The notes beneath the pieces are model-generated. The model was not told where the DNA came from, ran no database searches, and worked only from the letters and a program-made list of their open reading frames with translations. Shown piece after piece: positions 24,857 to 36,125 of a DNA stretch of 64,000 nt. The stretch's first letter is position 1. Each line of letters opens with the position of its first letter. Made by a program: the position numbers and the translations under genes. This DNA is from Verrucomicrobiia bacterium (GTDB lineage Bacteria; Verrucomicrobiota; Verrucomicrobiia; Verrucomicrobiales; DEV007). The stretch is taken from assembly GCA_030425385.1 (NCBI GenBank), contig JAUIAH010000018.1:1-64000 (forward strand), written 5' to 3'.

Positions 24857-25576
24857 TCACGTGTGAATCGCTTGGCATGCGGCGTGAATGGCGGTGTCGA
24901 GGGCGGACAGGAGCTCGGCGTCGCTGGGAGCCGACGGAAGGGCTTGTGGGGTGGTCTTGGCTGCGGTTTCGAGGGTTCCCATGGCCTTGGCAAAGGCGGC
25001 GAATCCAAAGGTGCCGGAAGATCCTTTGAGCTGGTGCGCGAGTTGATGCACGCGACCACCGTCCCCTTGCGATCGGGCTTCTAGCAGTTGTGCGAGTTGT
25101 TCGCGCGCGAGCTGTTGGAAATCGTCGAAGATTTCCATCGATTCCGGGTCGGAGGGGTCCACGATGGATTCGAGCTGGTCGCGGTCGATGCCGTCAGAGG
25201 GTTCCGTGGCGGCCACTCCCGGTGAAGCAAGCGCGAGCGCTTCTTGCAGCGCCTTGATGCGGAGGGGCTTGGGAAGGTAGTCGGCCATCCCGGCATCGAG
25301 GCAAGCTTCCCGGTCCCCAATCACCGTGTTGGCCGTGAGCCCGATGATCCGTGGGGGGTGATCACCCGCCTCTTTGAGAATTTGTCGGGTCGCTTCCAAA
25401 CCATCCATCACCGGCATTTGCACATCCATAAGAATCGCTGCAAAGTGTTCCTTGCGAACGGCATGCACAGCTTCGAGCCCGTTCTCTACCGTGGCCACTT
25501 CGTGCCCGAGAGACTGGGTGGCCTTGGCTGCCACTCGGCGATTGGTTTCATTGTCTTCAACGATCAGGACCTTCAT
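24857..25576 (-). CDS. Stand-alone receiver plus histidine phosphotransfer (REC-HPt) protein
   Basis: A 239-residue phosphorelay intermediate. The receiver domain (about 1-118) has acidic Glu7/Asp8, phospho-acceptor Asp51 in LMDVQMPVMDG, a Thr in GLTANT, and Lys103 in LPKPLR. The HPt domain (about 145-235) has the phospho-histidine His181 in LAHQLKGSSGTFG. It has no output domain, so it should shuttle phosphate between other proteins. It is divergent from the H-NOX gene across a 57-base AT-rich gap, and its receiver closely resembles the second receiver of the hybrid kinase at 26170 (GLTANT/ALTADA, DYLPKPLRI/GYLSKPLRI). It very likely belongs to the same pathway, either as phosphate sink or as branch to an unseen response regulator. 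Confidence 0.9.
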   Translation of the reverse strand: MKVLIVEDNETNRRVAAKATQSLGHEVATVENGLEAVHAVRKEHFAAILMDVQMPVMDGLEATRQILKEAGDHPPRIIGLTANTVIGDREACLDAGMADYLPKPLRIKALQEALALASPGVAATEPSDGIDRDQLESIVDPSDPESMEIFDDFQQLAREQLAQLLEARSQGDGGRVHQLAHQLKGSSGTFGFAAFAKAMGTLETAAKTTPQALPSAPSDAELLSALDTAIHAACQAIHT

Positions 25577-28366: not shown

Positions 28367-30757
28367 CTAGTAACAGCAGTCGTCGCCATCGCGGGCGACA
28401 TGGCCATCGGATCCTTCGTAGCCGATGGTGGGGTCAGGACTAGCCAAGTAGTAAGCGGAAGGGGATAGATTGAGAGGCTGCAGCGCAGGCTGGATCTGAA
28501 CACTGAGATCATCGAAGCTCGAATCGCTTTCTTTCCCTTCTTCAACGCCGTCGTTGTAGCGGGTGTGATCCTCGACCATGAAGACAGTCTGAGATTTGTC
28601 CGTGAAGGTGAAGAACTGATCGAGGCCCCCAGGATTAGCGCTATTGATCGTGAAGAGCGGTTGCCGTTTCGTCCGGTTGTCATTCCCTTTGGGCGTGTAT
28701 CGCCAGGGATTTCGGAGAAAGACATCCACGCGATTGTTAGGCACGATGAGAAAGCCCACACGCTTGCCGTCGAGTCCGTAGCTCGATGGAGTGAAATGGA
28801 CAACATTGCCAGGATTGTAGGCGCGATCGTCAAGGATGGAGATCGCGTTGGCTGCAGCCGTCCGCCGGAAGGCGAGGGAGCTCGGCGAGAGTTGGCTCAC
28901 CACATCATAGTCGAAGACGCAGAGGTCAAACTTCATGGAACTGCGGTCATCGAGAAAGCGGAACGCGTAGGGTTGATCGCCTTCAGGGAACTGATAGATT
29001 TCTGTCAGGGTTTCGAACGACGCATCGCCCAATTCCATCTTCTTCAGGCGGTGAGCCACGCCGCGGCTGCCGCGGTCGGAATAGATGCCCGCTTTTCCGG
29101 GAATCACGTCGTCGAACTGGGAGTCTCCCAGACCTCGAGGGATGATCGTGATCTGAAAGATGACATCGTTGAAATCTTGGTCACCTTGATAGGCGCGGTC
29201 TTCGAACCCGAGAACTAGGGGGCGCTCACCCTCGGCATCGTGGAAGAGGCGAGCCGCGATCTGTTCTAGTCCCTGGGGATTGTAGGCGGCATCTTGAAAG
29301 AGATAGGAATCACCGCCACGCGCGCCATCCACCTGAAGATAGAATCGCAGCTCCGTTCCTGCAGGCAGCACGCCCAGGCTGGCCTTGGATCCGACGGATA
29401 AGGGAGCGGCGGGCCCGGTGGCGAAGTCCGTCCAGATGACACGGAGGGTGTTAGGATCGCGTCCATCATACCAGCCCAACGTGTTCCTGGCATCGCCGCC
29501 GTCGTAGATCGCAGTGACGATGACTTCACTGTCCGTTGCCAAAGCAAATGTTTCGGGATCGAATCCGCGTTTGTAGTCTTCTAACAATGTTCCTTCATTG
29601 CGGCAGTAGAGTTCCTCCTGCACGAGTGACCACACGTGGCGCGCGCTCCGATAGTCTGCATCTGAAACGCCGTAGGTTTCGATCGTATCAATCGCGTTCT
29701 CGTTTACCGAGATAAAGAGATCTTCGAACGTGGCGAATTCCCCATCCGTGGCCGTGCAACGCAACGTGTAGTCACCGGGATTGGAGAACTTCACTTTGGT
29801 TTCCATTTCATGGGGAGAATAGATCTTGGAGAGCCCGGGGCCGGCTTCCTGCGTCCACTGGACCTGAAGCCCACCTCCTGTTCGCGGTAGGCCGTCATCA
29901 GTGATCGCTGGCTTGAGGGTGACTTCGCGGTAGTTGAGATTGCTGATGAGGTCGTCTCCAATCGCGATCGCGGGTGCTTCGTTGATCACTGCACGCGCGT
30001 CATGAACCGTGGGCTCTGGAGTGAGCACCATGGAGAGCGTCATGCGGAAGTTGGAGCCTGTCGTGTGGCGTTCGGCGAAGAACATGTCAAAGGGATAGGT
30101 TTCGCCTTCTGTCAGACCAAGGTCGTCAAGGGCAACTGAGCCGGAGATGGGACCGTGAACCCCGCCTAGATCGACGACCAGTTTCCCATCGATATAGACC
30201 CACACATCATCATCACCGGTGAAGTGAAAGACCTGGCCAGGCACATACGTGAACTCGTTGTGAATCTCCACGGTGAAGTGGAAATTCTGATCCCAGTAAG
30301 GCTCTAGTGTTGCCTGGGGATCGACGCTTCCCTTGGCCAAAGGAAAGAAGGCGTTGCTCGTGAAACTGTAAGTGTCGTCGGCGTTCTTGGTGAGCGTGAG
30401 CTTAGACCCAGCAGCGATGCCACCCAGGAGCGCTTCAGCTGGGACGGTCTTACTGAACCCTTCCGTATCGGTCCACCACTGATTGAAATCGCTCTCGTTG
30501 GTGAGATTGTGATAGCGATCTGCGGGAGCGGTGGGGCTCCAAAGGGGTTTGCCATCGGCCCCTAACGTTTGGCGAACGATTCCTTTCACATGACCAAAGC
30601 CACGGATCTGGAAGTTAGGGTGGGAGTCGTGGATGTCGCGGACGATGATCGGGATAGCGATCGAGTCCGGAAGATCGGAGGCTTGTGCGAGTGGGGTGAG
30701 CAGCGTGAGCATCGCGAAAGCCATGCCTGATAGGTCGTGTCGTCGTTGGGTTGTCAT
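28367..30757 (-). CDS. Secreted fibro-slime and DUF4114 domain protein
   Basis: A 796-residue exported protein. I chose ATG 30757, which begins MTTQRRHDLSGMAFAMLTLL, a plausible signal peptide ending AQA; a further 32 in-frame residues upstream look spurious. The fibro-slime (PA14-like) domain spans about 25-265, with PIIVRDIHDSHPNF, FHFTGDDDVWVYIDGKLVVD and YPFDMFFAERHTTGSNFRM. A cadherin/PKD-like stretch follows (about 290-390), then two DUF4114-type segments with GFEDRAYQGDQDFNDVIFQI and VEDHTRYNDGV...SDSSFDDLSVQI. Such proteins are surface or extracellular-matrix components that probably bind calcium and glycans. The gene faces away from the sigma-54 locus across about 400 bases. Confidence 0.82.
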   Translation of the reverse strand: MTTQRRHDLSGMAFAMLTLLTPLAQASDLPDSIAIPIIVRDIHDSHPNFQIRGFGHVKGIVRQTLGADGKPLWSPTAPADRYHNLTNESDFNQWWTDTEGFSKTVPAEALLGGIAAGSKLTLTKNADDTYSFTSNAFFPLAKGSVDPQATLEPYWDQNFHFTVEIHNEFTYVPGQVFHFTGDDDVWVYIDGKLVVDLGGVHGPISGSVALDDLGLTEGETYPFDMFFAERHTTGSNFRMTLSMVLTPEPTVHDARAVINEAPAIAIGDDLISNLNYREVTLKPAITDDGLPRTGGGLQVQWTQEAGPGLSKIYSPHEMETKVKFSNPGDYTLRCTATDGEFATFEDLFISVNENAIDTIETYGVSDADYRSARHVWSLVQEELYCRNEGTLLEDYKRGFDPETFALATDSEVIVTAIYDGGDARNTLGWYDGRDPNTLRVIWTDFATGPAAPLSVGSKASLGVLPAGTELRFYLQVDGARGGDSYLFQDAAYNPQGLEQIAARLFHDAEGERPLVLGFEDRAYQGDQDFNDVIFQITIIPRGLGDSQFDDVIPGKAGIYSDRGSRGVAHRLKKMELGDASFETLTEIYQFPEGDQPYAFRFLDDRSSMKFDLCVFDYDVVSQLSPSSLAFRRTAAANAISILDDRAYNPGNVVHFTPSSYGLDGKRVGFLIVPNNRVDVFLRNPWRYTPKGNDNRTKRQPLFTINSANPGGLDQFFTFTDKSQTVFMVEDHTRYNDGVEEGKESDSSFDDLSVQIQPALQPLNLSPSAYYLASPDPTIGYEGSDGHVARDGDDCCY

Positions 30758-30912
30758 CAATAGATTGGTTTGCTTGTTGGTGTGGTTCCCGATCGTGTCC
30801 CGGGAGGACTCTTTCCTTGGCAGGCGTCGTGCCAATGGGCTTCGTTGCGTCACAAACCATTCATCGTGAATATGTTGTGAAATATGCGCTCCGCCTGCAG
30901 ATGCATCCGAAG

Positions 30913-31009
30913 CCGGTAAAGATTTCAGGATTCACCCACTGACAGGGTAGCAATTGCTGTATCGGAACCGTTTACAGGTGAGGCCATCGAATCCGGTAAT
31001 CTTTACAGG
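30913..31009 (+). promoter_or_regulatory. Three dyad elements, candidate enhancer sites for the NtrC-type activator
   Basis: Three 17-base elements share the form CCGGTAA-N3-TTACAGG: 30913-30929 (CCGGTAAAGATTTCAGG), 30962-30978 (TCGGAACCGTTTACAGG, left half weak) and 30993-31009 (CCGGTAATCTTTACAGG, best dyad). Centres are 49 and 31 bases apart. They lie about 136-216 bases before the start expected from the sigma-54 promoter at 31110-31126, the classical enhancer distance. An NtrC-family activator is encoded at 34758-36125, at the end of the same locus. The rest of the 30758-31153 gap shows no gene. Confidence 0.55.
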
Positions 31010-31109
31010 ATAGGCCGCGGCGCCTGTCTGGAGTCTTCTGCGACTGCCCCGTCGCGTAATCTGCTGACTCCAAGGGGGTTAGGCATCTCGAAATGGCCGC
31101 TTAAGGCTC

Positions 31110-31126
31110 GTGGCACGACCGTTGCA
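31110..31126 (+). promoter_or_regulatory. Sigma-54 (RpoN) promoter of the glycosyltransferase operon
   Basis: TGGCACG-ACCG-TTGCA (31111-31126) is a full match to the RpoN consensus TGGCACG-N4-TTGCW, with GG at -24 and GC at -12. Transcription would start near 31137, leaving a leader of about 17 bases before the ATG at 31154. The nearby sigma-54 activator gene and upstream dyads support it. Confidence 0.85.
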
Positions 31127-31153: not shown

Positions 31154-32521
31154 ATGAAATCATCCACCAGCATCATCGCTTCCACGACCCCACGTCACAC
31201 GCTCTCCTTCATCGTTCCCCTCATGAATGAGCAAGAGACGCTTGAAGAACTCTATGACCGAATCGCCGAGCAAGCCCGCACGCACAGCACGTCGTGGGAG
31301 ATCATCTTCATTGATGACGGGAGTACGGACGGCAGTTGGGACGTCATTCAATCCCTCCGCGAACGTTATCCCCACACCGTCAAAGCCATTCGTTTCCGCC
31401 GAAACATTGGAAAAGCTGGCGCGCTTGCCTGCGGCTACGAAGAAGCCATGGGAGACATCGTCTTCACTCTGGACGCGGATCTTCAGGATGATCCTTCCGA
31501 AATTCCTAACTTTCTCGCTAAACTTGATGAGGGCTATGACATCGTCAGTGGTTGGAAGCGCAAGCGCCATGATCCGTGGCACAAGGTGCTGCCTAGCCGC
31601 GTCTTCAATAAGATGCTGAGCAAGCTGAACGGTGTTCCCCTTCATGATCACAACTGTGGGTTCAAATGCTATCGCCGAGAAGTGGTCAAGTCCTTGCCCA
31701 TGTATGGAGAGATGCATCGGATGGTGCCTTCGTTAGCGCGGATGAAAGGATTCCGGACGGGAGAGATCCCTGTGCAGCACCACGCGCGCCAGCATGGTGT
31801 GAGCAAATATGGGGTGAAACGATTTCTCCGGGGATTCATGGACATGTGGACCGTCTACTTTCTCAACCATTTCAAAGAGCGTCCCTTGCACCTGATGGGC
31901 GGCGCGGCAGTGCTCATGGTGACCTTGGCCATGACTGCCTGGGTGCTCGCGGCGTTCGGTATTACCTTGGGAGGCGTACTCGTTCCGGCCGCCCCCATCT
32001 TGTTTGCTGCCGCAATCTTGCTGGTGATGTTAGGGTTTATCGCGGAGCTCACTGTGCATCGCGAGTTCTCTTACAATCATCCATTGCCAGTCGCCGAGCG
32101 CTTCGTTGAGGGCTTGGTGACTGAAACCGAGGCTAACCAGGTGGTCTCCCTTTCCGCTGTGCCCAAAGTGTTGCTCGTGGATGATGACCCTTCAATCAGA
32201 CGTCTTCTCAAGCACCAGTTCACCCAGCATGGGTGGGAAGTGATGGAGGCGCATGACCTCGAATCGGCTCGCCAACGCATCGCCGATGGAGCGGACCTCG
32301 CCTTGCTCGATGTCTACATGCCTGGTGGAACCGGCCTCGAACTGCTTGAGGAGTTCGCCTCCCGTGCTCCCGCAACGAAAGTGATCATGCTTACGAGCGA
32401 GCAGGGGGTGCGTTCCGGGGTGGAAGCCATGAAATTGGGGGCCACGGATTATTTGACTAAGCCGGTCAATCCCCGCGAAGTCCTGAGCCATGCGCAGGCC
32501 GCCGTGAGTGTGGCAGCCTAA
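31154..32521 (+). CDS. Glycosyltransferase family 2 fused to a response-regulator receiver domain
   Basis: A 455-residue protein with an unusual fusion. Residues 15-245 form a GT2 domain of the polyprenyl-phosphate sugar transferase (DPM1/GtrB) type: SFIVPLMNEQETLEEL, IFIDDGSTDGS, the Mg-nucleotide motif Asp107-Ala-Asp109 in TLDADLQDDP, and HDHNCGFKCYRREV. Two membrane helices follow (about 248-270 and 277-297). Residues 336-455 are a complete receiver: VLLVDDDPSIRR with Asp343-345, phospho-acceptor Asp386 in LALLDVYMPGG, Thr414 in MLTSE, and Lys436 in YLTKPVNP. The sugar transfer should be to undecaprenyl phosphate on the cytoplasmic face. Phosphorylation of the receiver probably tunes activity or partner binding. 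It is the first gene behind the sigma-54 promoter. Confidence 0.93.
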   Translation: MKSSTSIIASTTPRHTLSFIVPLMNEQETLEELYDRIAEQARTHSTSWEIIFIDDGSTDGSWDVIQSLRERYPHTVKAIRFRRNIGKAGALACGYEEAMGDIVFTLDADLQDDPSEIPNFLAKLDEGYDIVSGWKRKRHDPWHKVLPSRVFNKMLSKLNGVPLHDHNCGFKCYRREVVKSLPMYGEMHRMVPSLARMKGFRTGEIPVQHHARQHGVSKYGVKRFLRGFMDMWTVYFLNHFKERPLHLMGGAAVLMVTLAMTAWVLAAFGITLGGVLVPAAPILFAAAILLVMLGFIAELTVHREFSYNHPLPVAERFVEGLVTETEANQVVSLSAVPKVLLVDDDPSIRRLLKHQFTQHGWEVMEAHDLESARQRIADGADLALLDVYMPGGTGLELLEEFASRAPATKVIMLTSEQGVRSGVEAMKLGATDYLTKPVNPREVLSHAQAAVSVAA

Positions 32522-32549: not shown

Positions 32550-33757
32550 ATGAAATCAGATCCCTCCCTGAAAGTAGGCATTGTTGGTTCTACTTACCCT
32601 CGAGAAGACACCGATACCGCGGTGCCTTGGCTGCGCGAGATTGTTGGCCGCACGGCAGATTCTGGGCATGATGTTAGAGTCATTGCTCCGAGTTTCAAGG
32701 CCTGGCCTCCCACGTCATCGATGGCATTCCCGTTCATCGCTTTCGCTACGGACCGGCGTTCTGGGAAACGTTGACACACGATTCTGGAGCGCCTAACAAA
32801 GTGCGATCACCACTCTTCAAGCTCCTCGCGATTCCCTATATTCTCGCAGGCATCGTTGCGGTGCTGTGGCTGACGTGGCGGCATCGCTTGGACGTGCTGC
32901 ACATTCATTGGCCCTTTCCTCATGGTCTGATGGCGCTCCTTCCGGCGCTATGCTTCGGGACACGCGTGGTGTCCACCTGCCATGGGGCTGAGCTGGCCAT
33001 GGGCAGAAATAGCGTCTTGGTGAGAGCCATTCTTGCATGCTGCCTGAAGTGGTCCGATGTCACCTGCACGAATAGCAGCCACACGGCGGATGAGGTGCGC
33101 AAGATTGTTCCGAAGATAGATCCCATTGTCGTGCCCTATGGAGCCACGGTTTCGGCTGGCAAGACCCTCGGTGCGCCGTTGCGCGATGATGCTGCCGTTC
33201 CCACGCTCCTCTTTTGTGGACGTCTCATCCAGCGCAAGGGCATCGATTACCTCTTGAAAGCCCTACCCATGGTCTTGGCCAAACGTCCCGTGCGATTGGT
33301 GATTACCGGGGAAGGGGATCGCAAGGCAGAATGGATGCAAATGGCCACGGATCTCGGGATTGAAGACCAGGTTGCCTTCCTGGGTTTTGTCAGTAGTGAG
33401 CGATTGAATGAACTCTATCAGACATGCGATCTCTACGTGCATCCCGCTATCTTCGATGACAACGGAGACACGGAAGGCCTGGGGGTCGTCTTGGTCGAAG
33501 CGTTGGCTCATCGCAAGCCCGTCATTGCCTCTCGTGTGGGAGGCATTGTCGATGTGATCAAGGATGGCATCACGGGCACTTTGGTGCCTGAGAAAGATTC
33601 GCGGGCTTTAGCGGAAGCTATTGATGATTTGTTAGGTGACCCCGACAGAGCACGGCAGTTGGGCGAAGCTGGGTTTGCCTATGCGCAAAGCCACTTCGAT
33701 TGGAATCGGATCACCGATCTTCAGTTAGGCGTTTACCAGGAAAGGGCAGCGGCATGA
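32550..33757 (+). pseudogene. Glycosyltransferase family 4 gene with one-base frameshift
   Basis: The frame from ATG 32550 encodes a normal GT4 N-terminus (LKVGIVGSTYPREDTDTAVPWLREI, VRVIAPSFK) and then runs into nonsense, stopping at 32774. The expected continuation (GLASHVIDGIPVHRFRYGP...LTHDSGAPNK) is in another frame and joins the open frame that begins at 32771 and ends at 33757. Adding one G to the GG at 32699-32700 restores a 402-residue GT-B enzyme, including LLFCGRLIQRKGIDYLL, the nucleotide-binding E-x7-E region (DNGDTEGLGVVLVEAL) and a C-terminal helix. The missing base could be a sequencing error or a real mutation; if real, only an N-terminally cut protein from 32771 could form. 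It overlaps the next gene by ATGA. Confidence 0.8.
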
Positions 33758-34698
33758 GTGTTGGAAAGTGGATCTTGCGAACGGCCTACCTCATGGTCGC
33801 GGTGGCCATGGCGGCCGTGCTGATCAAGCAGCGCGACACTATCGGCGAGGTCTTACGCTTGGTGGACCCCCTCATGGTACTAGCAGCGAGCGGAGTCTTG
33901 GTGTGCTATCGTGTGATCAATGCTAGCATTTGGGGGCTCGTGCTCAACGGACTGGGAGCTTCTGTTTCCTTCCTAGCGGCGACCCGGGTTTGGCTCATGA
34001 CAGAAGCCTTGCGCTGGTTGCCGGGTGGTATCTGGGGTTTCTGCAGCCGGGTGGGAGCGGCCAAGCGTCTGGGGCTCAGCAAACGTCTTGCCGGGGTGAG
34101 CCTGAGTGTGGAGCTGGCCATCACGATCATGGCCTGGGGACTGGCGATGGTGCTAGGAATCGGGTGCGCTGGTATCCTGCCAGCATTCCTCGATCCGTTT
34201 CCAAAGGCAATGCTTGCATTGAGCATGATTGCTAGTGCTGGCTTCTTGGCGATCCTTTGGCTGCTCCGACACTGGCTGTTGGAGCAGCCATGGATGCGGC
34301 GATTGGCTCCGGTGGGTGAAGGTTCTCTGCGATGGCGACCGCTCGCCACTGCGTTGGCGGCTTACGCTGGACTCTGCGCCATGAATGGGATCGCGTTCTA
34401 CCTCCTCATTCAGGCCTTTCCGCAGGGCGAGGCCCCCATCTCACTCGCCGCTGCGATCGGTATCAATGCCGCTGGGTGGCTCGCTGGCTTCTTCGCCATC
34501 GGGGCCCCTGGTGGATTGGGTGCCCGAGAAGCGGCTCTGGCGGCCATGCTGTCGCCCTTCTTGCGATTGGAATCCATTGTGTTGTTAGTGGCTGCGTGGC
34601 GGCTTCTCCAGATGCTGGTGGAAGCGGTCACGCTAGCCACGTTCGCAGCCACGCGACGCGAAAGAGCCTCGGCGTCTCCCGCGTGGGTGGTTTCTTGA
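33754..34698 (+). CDS. LPG synthase TM-like (UPF0104) membrane protein, candidate flippase
   Basis: A 314-residue polytopic membrane protein of the lysylphosphatidylglycerol synthase transmembrane-region family (UPF0104). ATG 33754 overlaps the previous stop as ATGA. About eight hydrophobic segments are visible, with the family blocks TEALRWLPGGIWGFCSRVGAAKRLGLS near residues 88-113 and FFAIGAPGGLGAREAALAAML near 248-268. Proteins of this family sit next to glycosyltransferase genes and are thought to move or modify lipid-linked products. Here it follows the GT2-REC and GT4 genes, so a role in exporting or flipping their glycolipid product is likely. Confidence 0.85.
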   Translation: MSVGKWILRTAYLMVAVAMAAVLIKQRDTIGEVLRLVDPLMVLAASGVLVCYRVINASIWGLVLNGLGASVSFLAATRVWLMTEALRWLPGGIWGFCSRVGAAKRLGLSKRLAGVSLSVELAITIMAWGLAMVLGIGCAGILPAFLDPFPKAMLALSMIASAGFLAILWLLRHWLLEQPWMRRLAPVGEGSLRWRPLATALAAYAGLCAMNGIAFYLLIQAFPQGEAPISLAAAIGINAAGWLAGFFAIGAPGGLGAREAALAAMLSPFLRLESIVLLVAAWRLLQMLVEAVTLATFAATRRERASASPAWVVS

Positions 34699-34757
34699 GG
34701 AACCCATTACTATTATTCTCCGAGAGATAATGGAAATTCGTGCTATATGAGAAGTGC

Positions 34758-36125
34758 ATGTCTCGAAATCGTGAACGCTCCCGTATTCTTGTCGCCGATG
34801 ATGACGACACCGTGCGGCGTCTCCTTTGCCATCACCTGAGTAAAGGTGGCTTCGATCCCGTGCCGGCCGAGGATGGGGCCGAGGCGGTTGCCTTGGCAGA
34901 TGACCAAATCGCCGCGGCGTTGGTCGATCTTGAGATGCCGCACATGGATGGCAAGGCGTGCCTGCAACGCTTGCGCAAGGACTATCCTGAGATGGCCGTG
35001 GTGGTGCTTTCTGCCACGGGCGGGATCGACGATGCCGTCCAAGCGCTCAAACTCGGGGCTGCTGATTATCTGACGAAGCCGTTCGATCCCAGTGAGGTCT
35101 TGGCGGTGCTCAAGCAGGCTGTCAAAGTCACCAATCTTGGAAAGGAGAACAAGATTCTGAAACAGGTGGTGGGCGACTCGCGCCCACGCAGCCCTTTCCT
35201 CGCCAGTTCACCTGAAATGCGTGAACTGTTAGGAAATGCCGAGACGGTGGCGGAACTTCCCTCCACGGTGATGATCACCGGCGAAAGTGGTGTCGGCAAG
35301 AGTCTCCTGGCGCGGCACATCCACTACAGTAGCCCGCGAGCAGACAAGCCGTTTGTGTGTGTCAGTTGTCCTGCATTGCCTAGGGAACTGTTAGAATCCG
35401 AACTGTTCGGTCACGAAAAGGGTTCGTTTACCGGAGCGCATCAGCAGCGATTGGGTAAATTTGAACTGGCTCAGGGAGGCACCCTCTTTCTCGATGAGAT
35501 CGGAGATTTGCCCCTGGATCTGCAACCAAAGTTGCTCAACGTCTTGCAAGACCGCGAGATCTTTCGCATTGGCGGGACGAAGCCAGTGAGTATCGATGTG
35601 AGAGTGATTGCGGCGACTAATGTCAATCTTCGCGAGAGGGTTGAGGCTGGCGAGTTTCGGGAAGATCTCTTCTATCGCCTCAATGTTATTCCGCTAGAGC
35701 TTCCACCCTTGCGGCGGCGGCCAGAAGACATTGAGACCATCGCCCAACATGTCCTTGAGCGCTTGTCCAAAGATCATGGGCTGGCCAAACCCATTCGATT
35801 AACCAAGGAGGCCATGAAGGTGATCCAGCAGGCAGAGTGGCCCGGCAATGTGCGTCAGCTAGAGAATGCCCTCGAGCGAGCAGCCGCTTTCTGTAAAGAA
35901 AGCGTCATTCAGGCGGATGCGCTTCAGCACGATACCCAGCAGAATGGGACCACCTCAGATGGAGAACCCGATCTCTCTGGATACAAATTGCAAGAACTTG
36001 AGAGACTGGCACTCACACAGACGCTTTCCGCCTGTCAGAACAACAAAGCGGAAACCGCGAGGCGACTCGGCATCACCGAGAAATCCGTCTACAATAAGCT
36101 CAAACGCATGGCTTTGGAATCGTAG
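34758..36125 (+). CDS. NtrC-family sigma-54-dependent response regulator
   Basis: A 455-residue activator with three domains. The receiver (about 9-120) has Asp14-Asp16, phospho-acceptor Asp57 in ALVDLEMPHMDG and Lys107 in YLTKPFDP. The AAA+ sigma-54-interaction domain (about 148-385) has Walker A GESGVGKS (175-182), the sigma-54 contact loop as GSFTGA (222-227), where the family norm is GAFTGA, and Walker B GTLFLDEIGD. A Fis-type helix-turn-helix is at about 405-453 (NNKAETARRLGITEKSVYNKL). ATG 34758 is preferred to GTG 34740. It lies 59 bases after the membrane-protein gene, and an imperfect hairpin occupies 34712-34731. It most likely activates the promoter at 31110 through the dyads upstream. 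No cognate kinase is adjacent. Confidence 0.94.
   Translation: MSRNRERSRILVADDDDTVRRLLCHHLSKGGFDPVPAEDGAEAVALADDQIAAALVDLEMPHMDGKACLQRLRKDYPEMAVVVLSATGGIDDAVQALKLGAADYLTKPFDPSEVLAVLKQAVKVTNLGKENKILKQVVGDSRPRSPFLASSPEMRELLGNAETVAELPSTVMITGESGVGKSLLARHIHYSSPRADKPFVCVSCPALPRELLESELFGHEKGSFTGAHQQRLGKFELAQGGTLFLDEIGDLPLDLQPKLLNVLQDREIFRIGGTKPVSIDVRVIAATNVNLRERVEAGEFREDLFYRLNVIPLELPPLRRRPEDIETIAQHVLERLSKDHGLAKPIRLTKEAMKVIQQAEWPGNVRQLENALERAAAFCKESVIQADALQHDTQQNGTTSDGEPDLSGYKLQELERLALTQTLSACQNNKAETARRLGITEKSVYNKLKRMALES

Follow-up and report, generated by a model that had tools for sequence, protein, structure and literature searches.

A receiver fused to a polyprenyl-phosphate glycosyltransferase in Verrucomicrobiota as a possible second output of an H-NOX-linked phosphorelay

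We describe the architecture, recurrence, ancestry, genomic context and promoter sequence of a GT2 glycosyltransferase joined to a response-regulator receiver (GT2-REC), encoded in a 64,000-nucleotide stretch of Verrucomicrobiia DNA, here called the window. We propose that GT2-REC serves, besides an NtrC-type activator, as the second output of one H-NOX-linked phosphorelay, a reading for which we consider the chances evenly balanced. Its further-reaching form is put forward tentatively, with doubt weighing slightly heavier than belief: the relay would directly switch a sugar synthase through a receiver copied from the activator of the locus, a glycan export machine would have its transcription and its enzyme activity set by one signal, and in lineages without the activator the relay would act locally through the enzyme alone. 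If true, this would be a rare case in which the lipid-linked step of glycan synthesis is itself a direct target of two-component phosphorylation, and would show how the receiver of a regulator can be copied to an enzyme whose operon that regulator controls.

31154-32521, + strand: GT2-REC, a fusion of a polyprenyl-phosphate glycosyltransferase (residues about 15-308), a linker (309-336) and a receiver (337-455), delimited by open reading frame, Pfam, AlphaFold and Foldseek

The open reading frame runs from the ATG at 31154 to the TAA at 32519-32521 and encodes 455 amino acids with zero internal stops or frame changes. Both Pfam domains scored well over cut-off (Glycos_transf_2, residues 18-179, E 9.7e-33; Response_reg, residues 339-446, E 1.4e-25). 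Among solved structures, the transferase part is closest in sequence to ArnC, GtrB and dolichyl-phosphate mannose synthase, and the receiver part retrieved receivers such as CpxR, PhoB and NtrC1. An AlphaFold model (26-row alignment; mean pLDDT 86.6, pTM 0.61) contains a GT-A domain, helices at residues 244-267 and 279-308 and a receiver that is well folded from about residue 337; ArnC and GtrB took the top ranks when this model was submitted to Foldseek. The DxD motif (D107/D109) and the two membrane helices agree with the sequence-only reading, as do all five key receiver residues it had listed: acidic pair D343/D344 (D345 is acidic too), phospho-Asp D386, T414 and K436, the last followed by P437. 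Judged by these sequence and model features, GT2-REC is a GT2 polyprenyl-phosphate glycosyltransferase of the ArnC/GtrB/DPMS type (GT-A fold, DxD, C-terminal membrane helices) carrying the full response-regulator set of acidic pair, phospho-Asp, Ser/Thr and Lys, and both domains look active. It failed the ArnC equivalog test (165.5 bits vs the NCBIfam NF007986 cut-off of 529). ArnC, GtrB and dolichyl-phosphate mannose synthase resemble GT2-REC in GT-A fold, DxD and two C-terminal membrane helices but have no receiver. By analogy with the two membrane helices and cytoplasmic catalytic domain of ArnC and GtrB, the receiver should be cytoplasmic.

Scans recovered 18 proteins with this architecture from 15 Verrucomicrobiota genomes (window and C48; L038-L047; L057; L059; L148 and L149 in G398; L146 and L147 in G452), where L059 is a contig-split fusion whose other half is probably L053. 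The second copy of the window genome is a full-length paralogue of 58% identity on a separate contig, C48. Within the order the distribution is patchy, with fusions in 13 of the 387 sampled genomes (contig-split G420 counted). No protein with both domains was found outside Verrucomicrobiota among the other loci fetched by the GT2-REC query, and every plasmid record fell short of 80% coverage of that query. DxD is retained in every alignment row spanning it, and acidic pair, phospho-Asp, Ser/Thr and Lys are retained in 16 of 18 fused receivers at overall identities down to 45-50%. The two exceptions are natural pseudo-receivers on the same enzyme type: Asn replaces the phospho-Asp in L046 (2163-3590), and L047 (4988-6391) has lost the second acid of the pair and the Thr/Ser. 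Since many relatives encode the same GT2 without any receiver in an orthologous locus, the receiver is best seen as an added regulatory layer which is not essential, with a basic enzyme that works without phosphorylation. Orthologous loci with intact, degenerate and no receiver thereby form a natural set in which the role of the receiver is directly testable.

The earlier statement that receivers do not normally end in polyprenyl-phosphate sugar transferases has to be qualified in view of an archaeal precedent with a different GT2 type, MTH_548 and its relatives in Methanobacteriaceae, which are described simply as a fusion (PMC5847659). These proteins likewise join a receiver to a GT2-type glycosyltransferase domain (PMC5847659) but differ from GT2-REC in that the domain is BcsA-like (PF13641), one or two receivers are present, and the hosts are Archaea. 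Going by domain assignment, receiver-glycosyltransferase fusions are thus already known from Archaea and are found here with the polyprenyl-phosphate GT2 type in Verrucomicrobiota.

The following genes surround GT2-REC in the window:

24857-25576, - strand: REC-Hpt phosphotransfer protein, with the sole Hpt domain detected in the genome
25634-26188, + strand: H-NOX (haem NO/O2-binding) sensor with YxSxR motif (YLSER), the sole H-NOX detected in the genome
26170-28284, + strand: hybrid histidine kinase, PAS-HisKA-HATPase-REC-REC, overlapping the H-NOX gene
28367-30757, - strand: secreted fibro-slime/PA14 + DUF4114 protein, divergent from the GT2-REC operon; signal peptide by eye
32550-33757, + strand: GT4 glycosyltransferase, apparent operon partner, with a one-base frame shift near 32697
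33754-34698, + strand: LPG_synthase_TM/flippase-like integral membrane protein, its start overlapping the GT4 stop
34740-36125, + strand: NtrC-type response regulator (REC, sigma-54 AAA+, Fis-type HTH), its receiver in the sister group of the fused receivers

Within 12 kb, the window thus holds the REC-Hpt, H-NOX, hybrid kinase and divergent fibro-slime/DUF4114 genes, followed by co-directional GT2-REC, GT4, LPG_synthase_TM and NtrC-type activator genes. The activator within the apparent operon bears out the earlier statement that a sigma-54 activator is encoded in the locus; what went unmentioned at that time is the set of H-NOX, hybrid kinase and REC-Hpt genes that lies 3-6 kb upstream of GT2-REC. 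A literature search found no description of this locus. Across the order, the conserved set consists of Hpt or REC-Hpt, DUF4114 protein, NtrC, H-NOX, hybrid kinase and OEP (TolC-like), together with GT2 with or without REC, GT4, LPG_TM, HlyD, a 450-520 aa protein and a PMT_2 GT-C enzyme of about 1100 aa. The window genome splits this set, with the regulators and GT2-REC/GT4/LPG_TM on C22 and the exporter, PMT_2 and second GT2-REC on C48. There, the GT2-REC copy (G000:C48:194212-195522; L118 9162-10544) lies beside OEP, HlyD, TPR-like and PMT_2 genes; the exporter half adjoins this copy and is absent beside the window copy. In ArnC-ArnT logic, a GT2 enzyme makes a polyprenyl-phosphate sugar which a PMT_2-type enzyme uses. 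By this analogy, PMT_2 is the expected user of the polyprenyl-phosphate sugar of GT2-REC, and the product would be exported via OEP-HlyD.

The region upstream of GT2-REC holds these elements:

31111-31126, + strand: sigma-54 (-24/-12) promoter TGGCACGACCGTTGCA, 0 mismatches, first base 43 nt 5' of the ATG
30908-31011, no strand assigned: candidate enhancer repeats between the divergent promoters (copies 30908-30931 and 30988-31011; half-copy 30971-30985)
30819-30834, - strand: possible second, divergent sigma-54 site TGGCACGACGCCTGCC, weak with 2 mismatches, 62 nt 5' of the likely ATG (30757) of the fibro-slime gene

The TGGCACGACCGTTGCA site is one of 8 exact TGGCACGN4TTGC matches in 8.0 Mb (reversed control, 5). 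Of 28 homologous genes, 7 have TGGCAC-N6-TG at most 150 nt upstream, compared with an expectation of 0.003 each per 150 nt; the motif is missing upstream of most fusions of the Akkermansiaceae-like group. One RpoN is encoded in the window genome. With a -24/-12 promoter, an enhancer-binding activator and RpoN all recognizable in the genome sequence, the apparent GT2-REC operon is predicted to be sigma-54-dependent. The upstream repeats (direct repeat of 24 nt, 79%; inverted repeat of 21 nt, 86%) are candidate activator-binding (enhancer) sites. Near the locus of the C48 paralogue the enhancer motif was not found, its genome-wide counts equalled the control, and the C48 locus holds no perfect sigma-54 site.

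We then asked the receiver tree (77 receivers, 118 columns) for the ancestry of the fused domain. All 18 fused receivers form one clade (94/91) whose sister is formed by NtrC receivers from loci of this type (93/82), and both are nested within NtrC-type receivers (97/83), with the hybrid-kinase and REC-Hpt receivers grouping apart from the fused clade. Because the fused receivers are monophyletic and sister to the locus NtrC receivers, a single copying of an NtrC receiver onto the neighbouring enzyme is the simplest history and the probable one; support from a tree of 118 columns is good but not final. The best GT2 tree implies three fusion changes, a count to which the contig-end fragments L053 and L135, scored as receiver-less, contribute, and the one-clade alternative is not rejected (AU p 0.087).

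Several observations connect the receiver to the signalling genes. H-NOX was found in 21/22 genomes with the locus GT2 vs 63/365 without it (Fisher p 2e-14, kinship not corrected). In L148 (6155-10745) the REC-Hpt gene, divergent from the hybrid kinase gene, is separated at its end by 38 nt from the GT2-REC reading frame that follows, and in L043 the H-NOX and kinase genes lie directly upstream of GT2-REC on the same strand. Hybrid kinases normally need an Hpt. The pairing of the H-NOX and hybrid kinase genes, together with the Hpt, gives the locus the gene content of an H-NOX-controlled phosphorelay. Sister NtrC receivers, the adjoining sole detected Hpt and H-NOX, and the gene order of L148 and L043 together suggest that the receiver is tied to the signalling system of the locus. 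At E 1e-100, no orthologue of the window NtrC was found in four fusion genomes (G398, which contains L148, and G452, G730 and G732); these are drafts and the absence is tentative. Since these four genomes are without a detectable NtrC orthologue, the two-output wiring is not universal, and in them the relay may act locally mainly through the fused receiver.

In the scheme we favour, H-NOX would sense NO or O2 and modulate the hybrid kinase, as gene pairing and known H-NOX kinases suggest. Phosphoryl groups would pass from the kinase to REC-Hpt, the only Hpt detected in the genome, and from there to NtrC, which would bind and activate the perfect sigma-54 promoter of the GT2-REC/GT4/flippase/NtrC operon. 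REC-Hpt would also phosphorylate D386 of GT2-REC, whose receiver shares ancestry with that of NtrC in the tree. Phosphorylation may then alter how active the cytoplasmic GT-A domain is or how it oligomerises, and thereby the supply of polyprenyl-phosphate sugar to a PMT-type GT-C enzyme glycosylating an exported product, so that the same signal would gate both expression and activity. Phosphorylation of the receiver, the phosphodonor, the resulting activity gate, the sugar and the product are what we infer here. The two-output logic resembles the HnoX-HahK relay of Vibrio fischeri, in which HnoX-HahK-SypF(Hpt)-SypG/SypE controls the SYP polysaccharide and the Hpt feeds SypG (transcription) and SypE (post-transcriptional) (PMC12369376). 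Like the locus described here, that system combines an H-NOX-linked hybrid kinase, an Hpt, a transcriptional regulator and a second receiver output on glycan production. SypE, however, is a separate regulator protein acting on SypA, whereas the GT2-REC receiver sits on the biosynthetic enzyme itself. We take SypG to be a sigma-54 activator.

A number of observations weigh against this scheme. The suggestion of the sequence-only reading that phosphorylation directly controls glycan synthesis goes further, as worded there, than our structural model: the linker (residues 309-334) is disordered with pLDDT <50, and coupling between the GT-A domain and the receiver is not visible. The contact residues of the window GT2-REC are also only moderately NtrC-like, matching those of the window NtrC at 50% of 20 positions, a value exceeded by none in the genome sample and shared by one unrelated receiver. 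The many receiver-less orthologues, the two degenerate receivers and the four genomes without a detectable NtrC orthologue likewise count against it. Some of the same facts would fit a phosphate sink or buffer, in which the receiver draws phosphoryl groups off the Hpt it shares with NtrC, damping the latter in a negative feedback as the operon is expressed, and leaves transferase activity unaffected. The sister relationship to NtrC receivers, the placement of NtrC and GT2-REC in one apparent sigma-54 operon and the flexible linker speak for such a sink; we nevertheless rate it unlikely, as it would work without fusion to an enzyme and, in the four activator-less genomes, there is nothing known to damp. 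Similarly unlikely in our estimate is a recruitment or placement module, where phosphorylation controls dimerisation or binding of a partner (kinase, exporter) and positions the enzyme at the export machine with unchanged turnover. A disordered tether would suit this role, the GtrB and ArnC relatives among the structure entries matched by Foldseek are oligomers, and exporter genes belong to the locus, but our data name no candidate partner.

That the receiver is a neutral relic of a gene fusion, kept with no regulatory effect, appears improbable. Its patchy occurrence, its degeneration in two members and its loss from, or failure to reach, close orthologues would be expected of a relic, but the phospho-site set has persisted in nearly all fused proteins despite their divergence, and the gene order beside Hpt and kinase genes also argues against one. 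The chance that two genes were joined artificially, by faulty assembly or an overlooked stop, is negligible. The sequence-only reading had allowed for a break between the domains, or for a join of what are separate genes in homologues; the reading frame holds no stop or frameshift, and no homologue examined carries the receiver as a separate gene, the solo-GT2 loci simply being without one. The frame shift in the neighbouring GT4 indicates that assembly or genome is not flawless here, but the sharing of the fusion by 15 genomes and the second copy on C48 rule the artefact out. The fusion of glycosyltransferase and receiver is therefore genuine, as had been claimed from the sequence alone and as its open reading frame, its two strong Pfam domains and its recurrence elsewhere confirm.

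The two halves of GT4 match in different frames when set against all homologues compared, which reflects either true loss of function or a sequencing error. The fibro-slime/DUF4114 protein is likely an exported or glycosylated cargo, and relatives of up to 1600 aa lie inside the homologous loci L051 and L055. In some relatives the locus holds two GT2 genes, in tandem or close together (L079 9974-12087, L056 5213-12640, L052 5626-7239), which suggests more than one lipid-linked sugar.
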